From a virus, in IMG/VR virus record IMGVR_UViG_3300031772_000126, positions 1 to 36,883 of that record: a DNA stretch of 36,883 bases; one strand, written 5' to 3'. Position numbers and translations under genes: made by a program. Under the pieces are notes generated by a model. It searched no databases. It saw nothing but the letters and a program-made list of their open reading frames with translations, and was not told where the DNA came from. This document shows positions 3,550-27,564 of this stretch, one piece after another; within the stretch, counting starts at the first letter, position 1, and every line of letters begins with the position of its first letter.

Positions 3550-4143
3550 TTAGTTGCTCGATTTGCCGCGGCGGTTCTCGTAAGCCCAGTCAACGGACGG
3601 CCGGCTCCCGAAATACCGCCTTTGAAAGCTTGCTGTGTCCTCATCCATCGCCGCTAAATACGCCTCGAAGTTCTCGCGTTGCTGTGCTGGCGGCAAGAGC
3701 TTCCACCACCGATCAGCAGTGTTCTGTTTCATCGCGAGAGTCTTGAAGTCCTCGGCCTGTTGCGCCAGCCGGCGACGTTTTAGTGCGAACTCTGCATCGC
3801 GTTCTTGCTTGGCTGAGTTGGGTTTGTAGGTGCCAGATGCGTCAACAAACACACACCCCTGCCAACTGCCGGCGATGGCCCGCTTGAGCTGCGCGATCGC
3901 CTTAAGTTCTCCCATCGCCTCCAATGCCTCCAGTTGCTCCTCCGCCGCAAGTGAACGCAACGGCTTCCGTATCTGGCTCCGAGATGCGATCCACCTCGCC
4001 CAGACCCGTTGAAAGGCAGGAGTGTCGAGCGCGCGTGGGAGCGGGGGAAGAACGTCGGATGTCCGTTTGCGCGTTTTGGCCTTGGCCTCGGGCGCATCAG
4101 GTAACAGGACGCCTTGCCTATCCATCTCTCGTACTGGGCCCAT
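3550..4143 (-). CDS. Hypothetical basic protein, 197 aa
   Basis: The start at 4143 follows GGAGG by 5 nt, in the same leader found at the gene downstream. The upstream ATG at 4161 is less likely. The protein is rich in Lys, Arg and Gln. Residues 30-120 are predicted helical (PAFQRVWARWIASRSQIRKP, LEALEAMGELKAIAQLKRAI). The C-terminus (RENFEAYLAAMDEDTASFQRR) is amphipathic. No cysteine motif or membrane segment is seen. No family is recognised; its place in the early operon suggests a replication or accessory role, which is inference. A heptanucleotide array lies directly upstream of its leader. Confidence 0.6.
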   Translation of the reverse strand: MGPVREMDRQGVLLPDAPEAKAKTRKRTSDVLPPLPRALDTPAFQRVWARWIASRSQIRKPLRSLAAEEQLEALEAMGELKAIAQLKRAIAGSWQGCVFVDASGTYKPNSAKQERDAEFALKRRRLAQQAEDFKTLAMKQNTADRWWKLLPPAQQRENFEAYLAAMDEDTASFQRRYFGSRPSVDWAYENRRGKSSN

Positions 4144-4479: not shown

Positions 4480-5013
4480 TCAGAACGGAATCTCCTCCTC
4501 GCTCAACGGCACCATCGAATCACAAACCGGCGGCGACGGAACATGAGAAGGTGTTAGGATGTCCTTTCTGAATGCGCCCGCCGCCGCCGTGGCGTTGCCC
4601 ATCGGGACCGCCCCGATGGTTACGAATTCCCTCGCCAGGATGGCCTTCAACGCCTCGATCACACCCGCCGCCTCGCGTGGCCTGAGCTTGGATGCGTCGG
4701 AGACGCGACCGTAACTCTGCTGAATCACCAGCGTCTGGAGCAACTCCTCCCGCCCGAGGGCCAGGCGCTGGATCTCCCACCGCTGCCGTGAGTTGGCGAA
4801 CCGCCCGCGGTTCTCGACCTGCATCCGCCAGTAACGACCCTTGGGAAACCCCCGCGCCTCGAGAAACGCCATCACGTCCTCCAAGCCGGTGTTGCTCAGA
4901 TCCTTGCGGCTCTCCACATGGCCGATGTTGCGGAGAATCAACCTCAGCTGATCCTCCTCCAGCTTGTGCCGGGCGAACGCTGTGCTGAGAAGTTTGATCT
5001 GCGGCTTGGTCAT
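4480..5013 (-). CDS. GemA-like (DUF1018) early protein, 177 aa
   Basis: The start is the ATG at 5013, one base after the stop of the preceding gene, suggesting translational coupling. The N-terminus (MTKPQIKLLSTAFARHKLEE, then LRLILRNIG, SRKDLSNTGLEDVMAFLEARGF) matches the pattern of Mu GemA/gp16-family proteins: a leading Lys-x-Ile-x-Leu helix, a short Asp/Glu turn, then S.K.L....L..VM..L...GF. GemA in Mu is an early modulator of host gene expression. The C-terminal half has the LRPREAAGVIEALKAI segment and an acidic tail ending EEEIPF, which resembles the C-terminal tails of ssDNA-binding proteins. Family call is from remembered pattern, not a search. Confidence 0.6.
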   Translation of the reverse strand: MTKPQIKLLSTAFARHKLEEDQLRLILRNIGHVESRKDLSNTGLEDVMAFLEARGFPKGRYWRMQVENRGRFANSRQRWEIQRLALGREELLQTLVIQQSYGRVSDASKLRPREAAGVIEALKAILAREFVTIGAVPMGNATAAAGAFRKDILTPSHVPSPPVCDSMVPLSEEEIPF

Positions 5014-5014
5014 G

Positions 5015-5980
5015 TCATGTGGAGTGTGTGAGCTGGAGACTGGAGGCTGATGTATGCTGGAGGGCTCGATCTGTGATGGCGTATCGAGGCCCGTGGTCCA
5101 TCGGAAGATCTGGACGCACGATCGTGGGCGCAACATAGATGAGTTCAATGCGCGGACTCTCCATTGGCCCCTTTCGCTGGTGGCGGAGGTGGCCCCGCCG
5201 CAGATGAGCGTGGGTCAATTCTCGCCCTGGGCCAGAGGAATCTCTGTGGGCGTCCAGCAGCTTTAGCACGGATGGCGGCAGTTCGATCTCTCGGCCGAGG
5301 GTCAACTGTAATCCACTGCGGGTGGGCTCCTGTTTACCTGCGAGCTCCCGACGCCTGGCCAAAACGATGGGCGGCTCCAAATCTGGCATGACGAGATGGT
5401 GCTTCCCTTGAATGAAGAGGCAGGCGCAGACACAGGTCGCGACATGACGCCGTACCGCGACCGAGAACAGTTCTGTTTCGGGGGTGGGCATGCACGCTAT
5501 GGCTATGGTTGACCGCACGCACGCGTCCAACGTTGGCAAGAGAAGTAGTACGGAAATCTCAATTGCGGTGGGGGAAAAGGCGTACTGGCCACTCCTTATC
5601 GGACGCCTTTCGTCGTAGATCTTGCCGTACGCGACTGAAAGGTGAAGCTCTCGCTGAGACGCGTACACCAGGATCGAGTACGGGTATGTATAGCCTACAA
5701 TGCCATGCGGGAGCCGGACCTCGATCGGAGTTGATGGCCGCTCGAATTCCTGGGTTGGGATGGCAATGTCGCTCAATGCGAGACAGTCAAGCATCCTCGG
5801 CCATATTTTGACGTACGACCTGCCGGATTCGATGAAGTTCATCTCCGCCCGCAATCGCGGCACTGCATCGGCCCTGCGGTTCGCGACCGCCGCGAGAATC
5901 TCTTGCCGGTAATACCGCCGTGGATCGATGTCGGGATGTCTGGCATCATATTGCGTGATGTAGTTGCTAAAATGCATCAT
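5015..5980 (-). CDS. Hypothetical protein, 321 aa
   Basis: The start is at 5980 or 5977 (consecutive ATGs) with ggag four bases upstream. The frame extends further upstream only through a non-coding-looking stretch and a heptad array. The protein begins HFSNYITQYDARHPDIDP and has a beta-rich middle (EVRLPHGIVGYTYPYSILVY). A hydrophobic helical segment (ISVLLLLPTLDACVRSTIAI) lies near residue 155. Near the C-terminus, around residues 255-290, HLRRGHLRHQRKG followed by IELIYVAPTIV resembles the RGHxRRxxxG...V.PHWRG motif seen in an unnamed phage protein family. No function is known to me. It lies between the transposition ATPase and the GemA-like gene. Confidence 0.6.
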   Translation of the reverse strand: MMHFSNYITQYDARHPDIDPRRYYRQEILAAVANRRADAVPRLRAEMNFIESGRSYVKIWPRMLDCLALSDIAIPTQEFERPSTPIEVRLPHGIVGYTYPYSILVYASQRELHLSVAYGKIYDERRPIRSGQYAFSPTAIEISVLLLLPTLDACVRSTIAIACMPTPETELFSVAVRRHVATCVCACLFIQGKHHLVMPDLEPPIVLARRRELAGKQEPTRSGLQLTLGREIELPPSVLKLLDAHRDSSGPGRELTHAHLRRGHLRHQRKGPMESPRIELIYVAPTIVRPDLPMDHGPRYAITDRALQHTSASSLQLTHST

Positions 5981-6055: not shown

Positions 6056-7222
6056 TCACCCGGCGGCGGCGATACGCGCGGCTCTGGGCTCGTCCGCCTG
6101 ACGGCACAGCGTCTCCGCCCGCTCCGTCCGCACGCCGCATTGCAATGCTTCACGCAACAGCGGGACATCGATCGATGGCAGACCCCGCATCTCCGCCAGC
6201 ATCGTGGCATACTCCACGATCTGCACACACAGACCGATCGCGCCGCCATCGGGGATGTGCGCTAATTGGTACAGGAACTTCGCCGCCGCGCCCGTGATTT
6301 TTAGCTTGTTCTTGGCGAACATCTCGCGTACCTGCTCGATGGTCACGAGGGGCTCGCCGTTCCCCTCCTCACCCGGCCGGACGTTCTGCATCAGGTCCAC
6401 GATGGGGAAGATGCGGCGGCGGATCTGGGCGAGGCTTTCGTCGGCGTTCCGGGCCTGCTGCCGCTGCAGATACGCCACCAGATCGCTCGTCCCGCACCAG
6501 AGTTGCGCCGTCTGGGTCGCATCGTACAGGTCGGTGAGAATATAGAAGGGTTTGTCGTCCTTGCTCCATCTGAGATTGTGAATCTGATCAATCATCAGCA
6601 GGAAGGACCGCCCGGTCAACTTCTGTACGATTCGCTGGAATCGCTGACGGTTGGAGCCGCGCCCATCATCGATGTGAATGGCGGCACAGAGTTTCCGCAA
6701 CAGACCTGTCGGGTTGGCATCCACCTTGTCGATCGTCGCCAGCGCCGCCCGCCGCGGCCCCATCTCGGGCAATCCCAGGATGGCATTCAGGGCGACGGTC
6801 TTGCCCACGCCGCTGGTGTCGGGGCCGTAGACCATGGCGATCTTGCGGTAATCCCTCGCATAACTGGCGACGGCCTTGATCTGCATGGCCACATTGGCCC
6901 AGACGAATTGCGTGGTTTGGGGCCGCGATCGCCGCTTCTCCTCCTCAAGCAGCCAACCTTCGAGCGCGATCGCGAGCTGGCCGCGGTCGCCGGCATACTT
7001 GCCGTTGACGAAATCGGAGATCACGCTGGGCGAGTAGCCAATCGACTTGGCGACATCTTTGCGGTTGATCTTCGGCTTCTGCTGGCCGCAGAACATCTCG
7101 ACGTCGGCGGCAACAATGCGGATCTGCTCGTCCGTTACTTTATTGGGGTCCGTCCCTTCAGGAATCATCCTTGACGCTCCTCTGATCCGTTCGCGATCGA
7201 CCAGGGTGTCACGCTCGCTCAT
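6056..7222 (-). CDS. MuB-like AAA+ transposition ATPase
   Basis: 388 aa with ggagg five bases before the ATG, which overlaps the transposase stop (ATGA). The N-terminus has a Cro-like helix-turn-helix (RKDVAKSIGYSPSVISDFVN, 54-73) followed by GKYAGD, as in MuB. The AAA+ domain has a P-loop at 133-142 (GPDTSGVGKT), a Walker B at 209-213 (LMIDQ) and a sensor-like WCGTSDLV. MuB-type proteins bind DNA as ATP-dependent filaments, select the target and activate the transposase. Two details are unusual. The P-loop is two residues longer than GxxGxGKT. Walker B has Gln where Glu is normal. The pairing with the adjacent DDE transposase makes the assignment firm. The C-terminal ~100 residues are helical, as expected for the region contacting MuA. 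Confidence 0.9.
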   Translation of the reverse strand: MSERDTLVDRERIRGASRMIPEGTDPNKVTDEQIRIVAADVEMFCGQQKPKINRKDVAKSIGYSPSVISDFVNGKYAGDRGQLAIALEGWLLEEEKRRSRPQTTQFVWANVAMQIKAVASYARDYRKIAMVYGPDTSGVGKTVALNAILGLPEMGPRRAALATIDKVDANPTGLLRKLCAAIHIDDGRGSNRQRFQRIVQKLTGRSFLLMIDQIHNLRWSKDDKPFYILTDLYDATQTAQLWCGTSDLVAYLQRQQARNADESLAQIRRRIFPIVDLMQNVRPGEEGNGEPLVTIEQVREMFAKNKLKITGAAAKFLYQLAHIPDGGAIGLCVQIVEYATMLAEMRGLPSIDVPLLREALQCGVRTERAETLCRQADEPRAARIAAAG

Positions 7223-9270
7223 GACTCCTCCGTGGCCGATCCGTGGCCGTGATACGTAAATGTCGCACCATGAGGCTCGTCCTCGGACGCGGGCCTGGGT
7301 TTGTATGTGAACGCCGAAAGCTGCTCGGCGCCGACGGCCAGCCGCTGGGGCTGCGCGTCGAACGCCCGTTGAATCGCCGGCAACTGATCGTCGAATGGCG
7401 TTCGATGAGGCTGGAGGGGGGGCAGGGGGGGCGGGGGTTCGGTCGGATTGGCCCTGGCCGCAAGCTGCCGCTGGGCCGCCTTGCGGGCCACGAGCTGGCC
7501 GATGTCCTCGGCCATCCGAGGCCGCTGCTTCACATACGCCGCCATCGTCCTGCGAAGCTGCTTCTTCTCGACAATCGCCGCCCGCAACATCCCGTGATCC
7601 ATGTTGAAGGACCCCGTGATGTTCCGCCTGGCCCGGCAGATCAGCCGGCCCTCCAGGTCCAGAATCAAACAGTAGGAAAGATCGTGCTGGTTGATCCCCA
7701 CCATCACGGACTTTCCGTAAAGCTTCTGCACCTCGGCGTCGAAACCCCCGAAAAACAGGCCCTTGTACGTGACGCCGTGCTGAGAAACCTTCACCGGGCC
7801 GTGCGGCAATGCCGCGGCGAACTCCAGCATCGCGTCGGGCACCACGACCTTAGTCACCAGGCACTCGTCAAACACCTGGGCCGGGGTCTTGCCGTCCATC
7901 GAATTGCCGGAGTGCGCCTTGGCGTGGTAGTCGCCGGCCAGGTAGTCGGCGAACGCCCGGCGCACCTCGTCCAGCGTCGGCGCCTTGCCCAGACCCATCT
8001 GCCTGGCAAGATCATCAGGCTTGGTCTGCGGCTTGTTCCCGCAGTAGGTGTCGAATGTTTTGGCGAACCGATCGCAGACGCTTCGGAACTGCCGCTCGAT
8101 GGGCTTGGACTGCCCGTGGTAAATCCATGCTATTGTCGCCTTGATGCCCAGGATCTGGAACATGCCCACCAGCCGCTTGGGTGCGATGCCCAGCCGTATC
8201 TCCCGCCTGGTCCGACCGTGCAGTGTTCGGCCCCGATAGTCCTTGCCGTTGTCGACCAGGACCCGGTGGGGCTTGCCGTGGCTGCGGACCGCGTTGGCGA
8301 ACGATTCGACGATGGTGTCGGCGTTGCCCGCGTGCGCGTGGATGCACCAGCCCGTGATCTTCCGGCTCCGCATGTCCTCCCATCCGGTGATCGTCGGGCG
8401 GATGAACTGGCCCTCGTGCAGGCAGATGATGTCCAGCGTGTGATGGTCGCCGCAGGCCAGGTCGTTGGAATTGAGACTGGAGTAGTCGCGCCGGATCGCA
8501 GGCTCGCAATGATCCTCGAATGATTTCTTGCCCTCACGCATCATGATGACGAGTTGCGGAGGCAGTGTCTTGATGTGGCGCTGGGCGGCCTTGTAACTGG
8601 GGATCACGCCATCGGGGCAGTCGCTCTGCGCTGCCTTCTCGCACGCCAGGTCGTAGCACAGCTTGATCGAACGCCGGTGCTGTGTGAGCCAGAGCCGCTG
8701 CAGACACTCCAGGAACGGGCTGGGGCCTGGCTCGCCTGCCCCACGCCTGCGCGTGCTTCGCTCGTCGAGCAGCCCCGCCGTGCCGTTGGCCTGATACGAC
8801 TGCCGCCAGTTGTGCAGCGTCCGTTCGCAAATCGCGTCCCCGTCCCCCACGTCCAGCCGCTGCAGATACTGCGCGGTGATCTGCGATCGAGTGAAACCCA
8901 GCTTGATCCCGCCGGCGAGCGCCGTCTCCCAATCGTCCAGGATCCGCTTGCGCCGGTGGAGCTGCCCCCGCTTCGCTTCGGTCAGTGCGGATATGTCCAA
9001 CTCGGCGGTGTGTTTCGCCCTGGCGAAAACCGGATCAGCCGACTCGTGAATCCACCACATGGTCTGATTCCGCTCGCCACCCGGCCGCTTCTGGGCCAGG
9101 CCGCTGGCGGTCCACTCGGTTTTGCAACGCCGACCTAGATGATCGTCGTTCCGCCCCGACCGGCGTGCCGCCTCATGTATATCGATCCAACGCAGCCCCG
9201 CGGGCGTGTCCGCGGGCAGCGGGGGCGATGGGGGCGATGGGGGCGAGGATGCTTGCGGACAGGCGCTCAT
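7219..9270 (-). CDS. MuA-like DDE transposase
   Basis: 683 aa from the ATG at 9270, which has ggagg 8 nt upstream and overlaps the preceding stop (ATGA). The open frame extends upstream but only antisense or shadow. The N-terminal ~170 residues carry DNA-binding parts, including an HTH-like CERTLHNWRQSYQANGTAGL. The integrase core has the catalytic triad: D275 (GDHHTLD), D340 (VLVDNGKDY) and E392 (KPIERQF), with RPTITGWEDMRSRKITGW between. The D340-E392 spacing is 52. The domain after residue 500 matches the Mu C-terminal beta-barrel, and the tail is Pro-rich. It should cut both phage ends and drive replicative transposition with the MuB-like partner. Length is close to MuA (about 660 aa). 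Confidence 0.95.
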   Translation of the reverse strand: MSACPQASSPPSPPSPPLPADTPAGLRWIDIHEAARRSGRNDDHLGRRCKTEWTASGLAQKRPGGERNQTMWWIHESADPVFARAKHTAELDISALTEAKRGQLHRRKRILDDWETALAGGIKLGFTRSQITAQYLQRLDVGDGDAICERTLHNWRQSYQANGTAGLLDERSTRRRGAGEPGPSPFLECLQRLWLTQHRRSIKLCYDLACEKAAQSDCPDGVIPSYKAAQRHIKTLPPQLVIMMREGKKSFEDHCEPAIRRDYSSLNSNDLACGDHHTLDIICLHEGQFIRPTITGWEDMRSRKITGWCIHAHAGNADTIVESFANAVRSHGKPHRVLVDNGKDYRGRTLHGRTRREIRLGIAPKRLVGMFQILGIKATIAWIYHGQSKPIERQFRSVCDRFAKTFDTYCGNKPQTKPDDLARQMGLGKAPTLDEVRRAFADYLAGDYHAKAHSGNSMDGKTPAQVFDECLVTKVVVPDAMLEFAAALPHGPVKVSQHGVTYKGLFFGGFDAEVQKLYGKSVMVGINQHDLSYCLILDLEGRLICRARRNITGSFNMDHGMLRAAIVEKKQLRRTMAAYVKQRPRMAEDIGQLVARKAAQRQLAARANPTEPPPPLPPLQPHRTPFDDQLPAIQRAFDAQPQRLAVGAEQLSAFTYKPRPASEDEPHGATFTYHGHGSATEES

Positions 9271-9716
9271 GCGGAGGCCTCCGGGAATTCGCCCACCGCC
9301 CAGGTGAGGATCGCCTTGATCTCGGCGGCCGGAACACGCAGGTAACCCAGATCCTGGTACAGCCTCCGCCAGGCGTCCCGGCGGATCTCGCGATACCTCG
9401 GCAGCCATCGCGGCAACGCGTTGGCCAGGACCATGCGGTCCATCGCCACCCGAACGGCGAATTGAATCCCCCGCACCGCCAGTTGCTGATCCAACTCCCA
9501 CGCGTCATACAACTGCTCGGCGGTCGCTCGGGTTACCGTCCTCGCCAGCCAGTCCTCCAATGACTCGCCGTCTCGCATCAAGAGTGGATCGTTGGCGGCC
9601 TCGTCCCGACGCGGGGCCTCCGCCAACCGCTCCAGCCGACGCAGTTGGCCGCGGGAGACTCGCTTCCGCCAGACCTCGCTGCCTCGCGTCGCGTGATCGT
9701 CAAGCATGGTTGTCAT
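9267..9716 (-). CDS. Hypothetical protein upstream of transposase, 149 aa
   Basis: The start at 9716 (MTTMLDDHATRG) or 9707 (MLDDHATRG) has no strong Shine-Dalgarno; a heptad array lies just upstream. The protein is mostly helical and basic: VSRGQLRRLERLAEA, a central WELDQQLAVRGIQFAVRVAMDRMV, and a C-terminal domain ending AAEIKAILTWAVGEF. It overlaps the transposase start by four bases, so it is co-translated with it. Its position just before the A gene corresponds to small early accessory genes in transposable phages. No homologue is recognised. Confidence 0.6.
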   Translation of the reverse strand: MTTMLDDHATRGSEVWRKRVSRGQLRRLERLAEAPRRDEAANDPLLMRDGESLEDWLARTVTRATAEQLYDAWELDQQLAVRGIQFAVRVAMDRMVLANALPRWLPRYREIRRDAWRRLYQDLGYLRVPAAEIKAILTWAVGEFPEASA

Positions 9717-10018: not shown

Positions 10019-10045
10019 AATGGACTCCTCGGCGAATCGGTTTTC

Positions 10046-10081
10046 TGACAACTGACAACTGACAACTGACAACTAACAACT
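10046..10081. repeat. Heptanucleotide array 5 (TGACAAC on +)
   Basis: Five near-perfect heptads (tgacaac x4, taacaac) end exactly at the TAG stop of the zinc-binding protein gene. This is the cleanest copy of the repeat in the window. Confidence 0.9.
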
Positions 10082-10382
10082 ATCCCGCAATCTGCCTGTC
10101 GCCGGCGAGCTTGCCTACCCGCTTCAGGATGGACTGGCGGATAGGCTCGTCGTTCACGAGCGTCACGTCGCCGATGTAGTGCCAGTTGCCGCCGGAAAGC
10201 TCCTGAAATCCCTCGAACACGCGGGTACACGCGTGGCAGTAGGCGCGCACCCTCCGCTGCAGCACGGACCTGTTGGCGTCGCGGAAGATGTTCTCCCACA
10301 ACAGAGACGCATCGCACGACGGACAGGCCCCCGGGCTTTCGGTGTTGACCGTCAGCATCGGGACTTTGGTCGCTGGGGACAT
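10080..10382 (-). CDS. Small zinc-ribbon-like protein, 100 aa
   Basis: It starts at 10382 with gggagg upstream. Two Cys pairs, CPSC (20-23) and CHAC (49-52), about 26 residues apart, suggest a structural zinc site. The intervening helix has RDANRSVLQRRVRAY. The C-terminal part (HYIGDVTLVNDEPIRQSILK) is mixed alpha/beta. It may be a small DNA- or RNA-binding early protein. It lies downstream of a tRNA-like gene with its own terminator, so it may depend on read-through or antitermination. Confidence 0.65.
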   Translation of the reverse strand: MSPATKVPMLTVNTESPGACPSCDASLLWENIFRDANRSVLQRRVRAYCHACTRVFEGFQELSGGNWHYIGDVTLVNDEPIRQSILKRVGKLAGDRQIAG

Positions 10383-10396
10383 GGAACCTCCCGGAA

Positions 10397-10425
10397 AGTT
10401 GCCAGTGGGTAGTTGCCAGTTGCCG
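10397..10425. repeat. Heptanucleotide array 6 (GTTGCCA on +)
   Basis: Four degenerate heptads lie between the zinc-ribbon gene's Shine-Dalgarno and the terminator of the tRNA-like gene. Confidence 0.75.
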
Positions 10426-10428
10426 GTG

Positions 10429-10450
10429 AAAAAGGGCGCCGGGCGGCGCC
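10429..10450 (-). terminator. Intrinsic terminator after tRNA-like gene
   Basis: On the minus strand GGCGCC-GCCC-GGCGCC forms a 6-bp all-GC stem with a 4-nt loop, followed by CTTTTT. It lies about 40 nt downstream of the tRNA-like 3' end and before the zinc-ribbon gene, so it should end or attenuate transcription there. Confidence 0.7.
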
Positions 10451-10488
10451 ATGCATAACCCGCCCGGCCGCCCCATCACTCCGCAGAA

Positions 10489-10575
10489 TATCGCCGGCGG
10501 GAGTTGAACCCGCAACCGTGTACACTTGTGTACCCAGGTTATGAGTCTGGCGAGCTGCCATTGCTCTACGGCGCG
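10489..10575 (-). tRNA. tRNA-Met-like (CAT) with extended variable arm
   Basis: Reading the minus strand: acceptor CGCGCCG, TA, D-arm GAGC-AATGGCA-GCTC, anticodon arm CCAGA-CTCATAA-CCTGG (anticodon CAT), T-arm GCGGG-TTCAACT-CCCGC, and 3' acceptor CGGCGAT. The D, anticodon and T arms are convincing. Two features are odd. The variable region is 20 nt, containing the inverted repeat GTACAC-AA-GTGTAC, where a CAT tRNA normally has 4-5 nt. The two outermost acceptor pairs are mismatched, so only five of seven form. No CCA is encoded. It could be a degenerate phage tRNA or a tRNA mimic. An intrinsic terminator follows. Confidence 0.6.
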
Positions 10576-10584
10576 GTTGATGAG

Positions 10585-10615
10585 AGTTGTCAGTTGTCAG
10601 TTGCCAGTTGCCAGG
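10585..10615. repeat. Heptanucleotide array 7 (GTTGTCA on +)
   Basis: Four heptads (gttgtca x2, gttgcca x2) lie about 10 nt upstream (minus strand) of the tRNA-like 5' end. Confidence 0.85.
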
Positions 10616-11387: not shown

Positions 11388-11397
11388 CGGTTCTCCT

Positions 11398-11433
11398 GGC
11401 AACTGACAACTGACAACTGACAACTGACAACTA
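11398..11433. repeat. Heptanucleotide array 9 (TGACAAC on +)
   Basis: Five heptads (tggcaac, tgacaac x3, taacgac) lie between the plus-strand gene and the 81-aa gene. In the minus direction the array reads GTTGTCA...GTTGCCAGGAGA, so its end forms the 81-aa gene's Shine-Dalgarno. Confidence 0.9.
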
Positions 11434-11437
11434 ACGA

Positions 11438-12502: not shown

Positions 12503-13141
12503 ATGTTTAGAACAATGCGTCTGTCTGGTGAAAGGGTCGATCTATGGCGGCAGGAGTTGCGTTTCTCGCAGAAGGGTTTGGCGCGAAAGTTGGGAATTAC
12601 AGAAGCCAACGCCATCCGCCTGTGTCAGCGCGGCGCCCACGGCGTGTATTTGGATACGTTCGCGGGGATGATTAAGGCGAGTGGCCTTTCTGCCGAGGAG
12701 TTGCTTGCCAAGATCGGGGCGGATGTTGTGGCGGAGGACGCGCGGCCGGTTGATGAGGAGATCCCGATGTTCGATCTCTCCCTCGCCGCCGGCCCGTGGA
12801 CGGACGTGAGCGAGGTTGGCGAAACCTTTGTGGAAGCCGTGAAGGAGCGTGGGCTCTTCCGCGTGCGGATCGCGGGCGACTCGATGACGCCGATCTATCC
12901 TGACGGCGCGATCGTGGAGTTCCGGCGGCTTCGCCTCGATCGCGAGAGTCCAGTGCCGACCAGGGACTATTACGTCCAGCAGAGCGACGGTCGGGCGACG
13001 TTCAAAATGCTTGAAAAAGCAGGGGAAACAGAGTATGTTCTGCGGGCACTGAACCGCCGGAAATACCCGCAGCCGCTGACGGTCGAGAAGTCGCTGGTCG
13101 TGAATATGGCCGCGGCGGTCGGAAAGGTGGAGTTGATTTGA
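12503..13141 (+). CDS. LexA/CI-type phage repressor with S24 peptidase domain
   Basis: 212 aa. The N-terminal HTH domain (LWRQELRFSQKGLARKLGIT, 14-33) is followed by a linker and an S24 self-cleavage domain. The Ala-Gly cleavage site is at A96-G97 (SLAAGPW), the nucleophile is Ser127 in GDSMTP and the general base is Lys168 (FKML). This is the organisation of repressors inactivated by RecA-stimulated autocleavage, so SOS induction is expected. This differs from the Mu c repressor. The gene is divergent from the early promoter. No Shine-Dalgarno is visible before ATG 12503 or the alternative ATG 12515, so translation may be weak or leaderless. Confidence 0.9.
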   Translation: MFRTMRLSGERVDLWRQELRFSQKGLARKLGITEANAIRLCQRGAHGVYLDTFAGMIKASGLSAEELLAKIGADVVAEDARPVDEEIPMFDLSLAAGPWTDVSEVGETFVEAVKERGLFRVRIAGDSMTPIYPDGAIVEFRRLRLDRESPVPTRDYYVQQSDGRATFKMLEKAGETEYVLRALNRRKYPQPLTVEKSLVVNMAAAVGKVELI

Positions 13142-21751: not shown

Positions 21752-21763
21752 TCGGCCATTCTC

Positions 21764-21797
21764 TGGCAACTGACAACTGACAACTGACAACTAGCAA
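21764..21797. repeat. Heptanucleotide array 13 (TGACAAC on +)
   Basis: Five heptads (tggcaac, tgacaac x3, tagcaac) lie between the capsid stop and the Shine-Dalgarno (aaagaaagga) of the cement gene. They put stops in all three frames on the sense strand. Confidence 0.9.
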
Positions 21798-21817
21798 CGG
21801 ACAAAGAAAGGAATCGA

Positions 21818-27025: not shown

Positions 27026-27056
27026 CTGGCAACTGACAACCGACAACTGGCAACTA
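27026..27056. repeat. Heptanucleotide array 16 (TGACAAC on +)
   Basis: Four heptads followed by taagaaccc and the ATG of the connector gene. The whole block is nearly identical to array 17, 1.29 kb downstream. Confidence 0.9.
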
Positions 27057-27063
27057 AGAACCC

Positions 27064-27564
27064 ATGACGAGTTACCTCACCTATGCCGCCGCCGACGCGA
27101 TCGCCGCCACGATCCCCGCCCTCGTTGCGTATGCCGCCGCGACCAATGCCAATAAGGCGATGGCTCTCATGCAGGCTTCCCTCGACGTCGATCTCGCCAT
27201 GCGATACCAGGGCCGCAAGTACCTCGACACGCAGGAGCATCAGTTCCCGCGAATCCACGGCGATCCGGCTGTGCAGTCGAGTTATCCCTACGACCTGCCG
27301 GCGGGCGGATCGGAGATCTGGGATTGGGACTCCGCCACCAGCACCGCCATCGTGCCCGCCTACGTCAATCTGGCCGTGCTCTATCAGGCGGACAGCATCA
27401 TCGAGGGCGCACGCGAGAAGCGGCTCAAGGATCTGCATGACAAGATCACGAGTCAGTCGGCGGATGGATTATCGGAGACGTTCAGCGGCAATGCCTCTCG
27501 CCTGTGCAGGCGAGCGTACGAGATCATGCGGGAGTATAAGCTGCGAAGCGGGAGTATGGTATGA
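27064..27564 (+). CDS. Head-tail connector (adaptor, gp6-like), 166 aa
   Basis: The start ATG is 7 nt after array 16. The protein is helical with ALMQASLDVDLAMRYQGRKY, a QHQFPRIHGDP-like loop (EHQFPRIHGD), then STAIVPAYVNLAVLYQADSI and a long C-terminal helix. The A..AS..ID....GRK.......FPR..... pattern is that of head-tail adaptor proteins that bind under the portal. Its usual partner genes (stopper, neck) follow only after the methyltransferase gene. Confidence 0.7.
   Translation: MTSYLTYAAADAIAATIPALVAYAAATNANKAMALMQASLDVDLAMRYQGRKYLDTQEHQFPRIHGDPAVQSSYPYDLPAGGSEIWDWDSATSTAIVPAYVNLAVLYQADSIIEGAREKRLKDLHDKITSQSADGLSETFSGNASRLCRRAYEIMREYKLRSGSMV

Follow-up and report, generated by a model that had tools for sequence, protein, structure and literature searches.

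An initiator-type tRNA gene with an expanded variable arm in a Mu-like phage genome

What kind of tRNA is encoded by a viral gene that carries a methionine anticodon and a variable region of 20 nt? The question arises in an IMG/VR virus record of 36,883 bases and 62.5% G+C (hereafter the window, i.e. the whole stretch of DNA analysed), for which a first-pass annotation had offered three readings: a decoy against host anticodon nucleases, a novel class II tRNA-Met, or a decaying gene. The record contains MuA-like, MuB and GemA genes, an S24-type repressor, and terminase, portal and head genes, and judged by this gene content it is therefore a Mu-like temperate phage:

7219-9501, minus strand: MuA-like transposase
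6056-7222, minus strand: MuB
4480-5148, minus strand: GemA
12503-13141, plus strand: S24-type repressor
16.5-21.8 kb, plus strand: terminase, portal and head genes

The tRNA gene lies on the same strand as MuA and MuB, upstream of both, and was the single tRNA called by ARAGORN in the entire window (tRNA-Met(cat), 10575-10489, minus strand). Mu-like phages transpose, and an origin of the gene from an att site or host tRNA was rejected for this record with MuA and MuB. Seven-base tandem repeats of AGTTG(C/T)C and its complement (34 and 39 copies) occupy many intergenic gaps of the window (e.g. 10042-10086, 10394-10424, 10582-10614, 11396-11437, 21760-21804, and 27026-27067), often just ahead of start codons; one array is located directly upstream of the tRNA, and the four nearest Mu-like loci hold only 0-3 copies of each. 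The window also contains a near-perfect direct duplication at 1211-2071 with a period of ~415 bases (1372-1656 vs 1787-2071, 97%; 1211-1375 vs 1627-1791, 98%).

The span originally assigned to the feature, 10429-10575, holds a real element; it covers the tRNA plus its terminator, and the strand is minus. All parts below lie on that strand:

10489-10575, minus strand: initiator-type tRNA gene with anticodon CAU, 87 nt including discriminator A73, no encoded CCA (ARAGORN, Rfam)
10569-10575, minus strand: acceptor 5' strand CGCGCCG, with C1xU72 and G2xA71 unpaired and positions 3-7 paired
10552-10566, minus strand: D arm GAGC-AATGGCA-GCTC, with A11:U24
10541-10543, minus strand: anticodon CAT in loop CTCATAA, within the anticodon arm CCAGA-CTCATAA-CCTGG
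10514-10533, minus strand: 20-nt variable region GTACACAAGTGTACACGGTT
10520-10533, minus strand: palindrome GTACAC-AA-GTGTAC within the variable region, as RNA a 5-bp stem with a CAAG loop
10533-10518, minus strand: the extra 16 nt of the variable region, from comparison with another phage gene (L014, below)
10517-10514, minus strand: GGTT, matching the end of the normal L014 loop AGGTT
10497-10513, minus strand: T arm GCGGG-TTCAACT-CCCGC
10490-10496, minus strand: acceptor 3' strand CGGCGAT, then A
10429-10450, minus strand: intrinsic terminator after the tRNA, stem 10450-10435 with the T run next (scan and fold)

Parsing of the gene confirmed the 20-nt variable region with its inverted repeat and the acceptor stem of five pairs out of seven, in which CGCGCCG and CGGCGAT pair at 3-7 only. 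The first-pass description of the D, anticodon, and T arms as well formed around a CAT anticodon holds for the D and T arms and for the anticodon itself, but the anticodon stem has an A31xC39 mismatch; the unformed pairs are 1:72, 2:71 and 31:39, and the D, anticodon, and T loops retain the usual letters. The covariance-model check proposed for the gene came out in its favour: Rfam model RF00005 matched 10573-10492 at 40.6 bits (gathering threshold 29; E for the whole window 2.2e-05), and the alignment places a 16-nt insertion in the variable region. The terminator said to follow the tRNA was recovered by the scan (GGCGCC-GCCC-GGCGCC, then CTTTTT), which returned 2 terminator-like sites in 1.5 kb against a mean of 1.1 in shuffles; the same scan found no sigma-70-like promoter for the tRNA gene. 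The trailer folds with a z of -3.2. The cloverleaf including the variable stem lies 2.1 kcal/mol above the minimum free energy (MFE), and the corresponding medians are 4.1 for 60 long-armed viral tRNAs and 0.4 for 66 class I tRNAs. Taken as a whole, the tRNA is clearly beyond chance.

The identity of the gene is indicated by its acceptor and D stems. In the published counts excerpted from PMC5143459, position 1:72 is a C-U mismatch in 626 of 4438 bacterial initiators and in no elongator (2762 Met, 2717 kIle), 11:24 is A:U in 4430 of the 4438 initiators and in neither elongator set (0/5479), and U:A at 1:72 is almost confined to initiators. According to passages of a review (PMC7949028), formylation is aided by a 1:72 mismatch, G2:C71, C3:G70, and A11:U24, and P-site binding by three G:C pairs of the anticodon stem. 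The window tRNA possesses C1xU72, A11:U24, C3:G70, and A73, and lacks G2:C71 (GxA instead) as well as three G:C pairs at 29-31:39-41 or their AGG/CCU variant (it has AGA/CCU). By two diagnostic positions the gene is of the initiator type, yet it is not a canonical tRNA-fMet. The missing acceptor pairs noted in the first-pass annotation are in part expected, because C1xU72 with A11:U24 is the published bacterial initiator signature; this signature largely explains the odd acceptor stem and leaves G2xA71 as one mismatch over.

The origin of the arm was approached by comparing the window tRNA, minus its variable region, with 267 distinct parsed CAU tRNAs (66 + 85 + 30 + 86). The nearest core belongs to a gene of another phage (L014, 2648-2576), which is identical in the acceptor 5' strand, the D stem, and the anticodon arm including A31xC39, and has a 5-nt variable loop (AGGTT), C1xA72 and G2:C71; all of the 25 nearest cores listed have a 5-nt loop. 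Relative to L014, the window keeps GGTT and has GTACACAAGTGTACAC replacing A, i.e. 16 nt where one base stood. Because this nearest core has an ordinary loop, the variable region is read as an ordinary loop end (GGTT) with ~16 nt inserted. The T arm has kept its pairing: pair 51:63, A:T in L014, has become G:C in the window, so that the difference is compensatory. With Rfam, L014 scores 64.0 bits and the window ~23 bits lower. The 5-bp stem by itself proves nothing, because 19% of 20,000 shuffles of the 20 bases of the variable region reach at least 5 bp. An exact match to the 14-mer GTACACAAGTGTAC is present at a single site of the window; the palindrome was also considered as a repeated mobile element and rejected for lack of a second exact copy there.

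The check for the same element in related phages went the other way: the nearest core relative has a normal 5-nt loop, and no relative with the same insert was found in which compensatory changes could be read. When the same anticodon 3' arm CTCATAACCTGG was searched with any loop, all 66 distinct parsed tRNAs had variable regions of 4-6 nt, and the same D arm occurred in 3 viral loci, all short-looped, and in 0 together with a long variable region. Single queries with MuA, MuB, and portal found no close phage relatives. A search with a three-protein MuA alignment gave 80 loci, the nearest (L357-L360) at 35-36% identity, and none of the 80 carried the same tRNA (ARAGORN on 80/80, Rfam on 42/80). 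Met tRNAs whose variable loops are normal occur in the Mu-like relatives L385/L386 and L415, the one of L385/L386 having C1xA72. Another relative, L358, encodes a tRNA-shaped RNA (5873-5966, plus strand; Rfam tRNA 56.8 bits) that lies 22 nt ahead of the start of MuA. Its acceptor and T arms are perfect, and a long hairpin (CATGCC-G-GCCACG...CGTGGC-A-GGCATG) takes the place of the anticodon loop; within the MuA leader it might act as a processing signal or as a decoy. Type II hammerhead ribozymes were observed in the Mu-like phage loci L366, L365, L387, and L398 (three in L366, plus RAGATH-28).

Beyond these relatives, start-type tRNAs with a long arm proved common among uncultured phages. Viral contigs scanned for CTCATAA, 16-46 nt and a T arm gave at least 120 stretches, and at 124 places read from them ARAGORN called 77 tRNA-Met(cat), two another tRNA, and 45 no tRNA. 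Parsing (variable region ≥9 nt, at least five of six pairs at 2-7, no demand on 1:72; unparsed and duplicate places dropped) yielded at least 63 distinct long-armed CAU tRNAs, in which 1:72 was a mismatch in 29, U:A in 12 and another pair in 22, so that 41/63 were initiator-type at 1:72. A11:U24 was present in 20 of these 41, with the D-stem register uncertain for 17 of them, vs 2 of the 22 others. G2:C71 with C3:G70 was likewise found in 41/63, a group that overlaps the initiator-type 41 and is not identical to it; pairs 2 and 3 are formed there by construction, pairs 4-7 were each formed in 41/41, and 1:72 was paired in only 13/41, nine being T:A. A second viral scan requiring A11 and U24 returned 19 more long-armed genes, mutually distinct, some of which repeat first-scan genes. 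As for the arms themselves, 27 of 52 distinct ones (60 genes) form at least 3 pairs with a 1-nt lead and a 2-3 nt tail (shuffle control: mean 3.9, maximum 11 in 1000), and the differing pairs at the same places (G:C, A:T, T:A; C:G, T:A) point to covariation. Rfam scored 40.9-58.8 bits for 11 of 13 submitted carriers, compared with 40.6 for the window, and gave no row at or above the cut-off at the gene of L139 (4.7 kb gene) and of L230. Five of ten carrier proteins scanned match phage protein families.

The window gene, with CAU, an initiator-type 1:72, A11:U24, and a variable region above 9 nt, belongs to this set loosely. Its arm has lead 0, beginning right after the anticodon stem, and a tail of 6 nt, in contrast to the 1-nt lead and the tail of 2-3 nt described above. 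Since both the 2:71 position and the arm geometry set the gene apart, and the core closest to it is of class I, the arm is probably an independent expansion of a normal loop and not shared with the set by descent. Long-armed CAU tRNAs with paired 1:72 and, by eye, Leu-like bodies were also seen in viral contigs (L138, L110, L100, L164, L170, L108, L147, L167, and L202), and might read AUG or AUA with another amino acid. One phage contig with a long-armed initiator-like tRNA, L193, has a permuted tmRNA match at 3628-3819 (53.7 bits).

In cellular loci, the variable loop was 5 nt long in 83 of 86 distinct parsed CAU tRNAs, against 20 nt in the window. A similar pattern occurred in 5 of 1081 cellular genomes (1/395, 1/398, 3/288), and reading by eye found no intact tRNA among those five matches. 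The pattern scan of genome contigs gave at least 119 rows and says little about absence in cells, because nearly all rows were false, with a second downstream GGTTC satisfying the gap. A MAG contig labelled 'bacterium SM23_31' (L262) carries two initiator-like genes in which the anticodon loop is followed by a TCCCGC-TTA-GCGGGA hairpin, and an Acidobacteriota locus (L287) has a degenerate hairpin-bearing gene similar to that pair. Against 50,697 phage records, the window tRNA region had partial matches only, and five long-armed genes used as queries found no long-armed match among the matches listed: three had no match at 1e-6, and the remaining two, searched at 0.01, hit either parts of tRNA-Met genes or places of 72-77 nt that span most of the query, lengths of short-loop tRNAs (25 of 36 records listed for one query). 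In the open-licence papers searched, among them passages of PMC7609411 on non-canonical tRNAs, no initiator tRNA with a long arm is described.

Is the gene still in use? A normal L014-like initiator-type tRNA may have gained a 16-nt palindromic insertion and an acceptor mutation and gone out of use, which we regard as possible but rather doubtful. The 5-nt loops of L014 and the other nearest cores listed fit such a loss, as do the absence of G2xA71 from L014, a hairpin within the reach of shuffling, and the uniformly short loops (66/66) of the same-arm scan. Yet the loops of the D, anticodon, and T arms are of normal sequence, the T-stem difference from L014 is compensated, and the cloverleaf lies energetically near the MFE. 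Moreover, A31xC39 and a 2:71 mismatch are no proof of decay, because other phage tRNA genes share them (A31xC39 in L014 and L041, a 2:71 mismatch in 7 of 66 class I phage genes); decay keeps its standing because of G2xA71 and the lack of any relative sharing the insert.

The RNA could instead soak up or resist a putative VapC-type host nuclease, the side arm or altered anticodon stem blocking cleavage. Excerpts of PMC10264068 report that enteric VapC cleaves initiator tRNA and propose that phage tRNAs evade such host tRNases; the AGA/CCU anticodon stem and the L358 RNA, which has no normal anticodon loop, would agree with a decoy or resistant substitute. The same excerpts state that phages usually avoid encoding tRNA-fMet where VapC targets it, and the anticodon loop of the window tRNA is itself unchanged, which makes this role unlikely here, although a long-armed initiator would be a way round that avoidance. 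The proposal of a novel class II tRNA-Met came closest of the original three, being class II-like with CAU, and missed that the signature is an initiator's. Its extension to a leucine- or serine-type elongator of changed identity, reading AUG or AUA, finds parallels in other viral long-armed CAU tRNAs that look Leu-like by eye (L138, L164, L167, L202); it is very improbable, since C1xU72 and A11:U24 are initiator and not elongator features (PMC5143459, tables in part) and the core matches Met initiator-type genes and not that Leu-like set.

The explanation we favour, at about an even chance, is that this phage tRNA is of the initiator type, gained its expanded variable arm independently and is probably functional; most likely it belongs to the early region and serves, or once served, to start phage proteins. 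From its sequence signatures, fold, terminator and position we infer the following course, from expression through charging and formylation to use, together with any protection against host nucleases. On induction, the tRNA would be transcribed in the leftward early region and trimmed, and a host enzyme would add CCA. Host methionyl-tRNA synthetase would charge it via the CAU anticodon, formylation would follow to some degree, and IF2 would use it to start phage proteins. The 16-nt insert, which probably arose independently from a normal 5-nt loop, would form a side helix while the cloverleaf stays foldable; the many uncultured phages with long side arms on initiator-type tRNAs indicate that such arms are tolerated. 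The altered body could serve when host initiator tRNA is limiting or cleaved, e.g. by VapC-type nucleases. Counted against this explanation are G2xA71, which removes one formylation-assisting pair; AGA/CCU, which is not the usual GGG/CCC (or AGG/CCU); an Rfam score below that of L014; an arm geometry that departs from the wider set; and the scan that found no sigma-70-like promoter.

We tentatively extend this to a hypothesis that we hold to be possible and short of probable: uncultured phages, including this one, encode an undescribed initiator tRNA, a tRNA-fMet with a class II arm, in which the arm has a function, was acquired on more than one occasion, and distinguishes the phage initiator from the host's. 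If so, the arm could shield the tRNA against host tRNA nucleases or against modification, or favour its use at phage start sites. Few tRNAs are as constrained as the initiator, whose variable loop is short in the cellular genes read here; repeated addition of a long arm by phages to a tRNA that still works would reveal freedom in the initiation machinery, point to an arms race over translation start, and supply separate initiation systems with a compact natural scaffold. In annotation, ARAGORN labels long-armed genes plain tRNA-Met and Rfam scores them lower.

Compared with known systems, the window tRNA shares with bacterial tRNA-fMet the CAU in CTCATAA, the C-U mismatch at 1:72, A11:U24, C3:G70, and A73, and differs in G2xA71, in AGA/CCU for three G:C pairs, and in a variable region of 20 nt instead of 5. 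With class II tRNAs (Ser, Leu, Tyr) it has in common a variable region of at least 10 nt that could form a helix, whereas its acceptor and D stem are initiator-type and its anticodon is CAU. The class I initiator-like tRNA-Met of L014 matches it in acceptor 5' strand, D stem, anticodon arm and loop end GGTT, and lacks the 16 extra nt and the changes at 71/72. Long-armed initiator-like tRNAs of uncultured phages share CAU, a mismatch or U:A at 1:72, often A11:U24, and a variable region of at least 9 nt, but mostly have G2:C71, and many of their arms combine a 1-nt lead, a 3-6 bp stem, often a GAAA loop, and a 2-3 nt tail.
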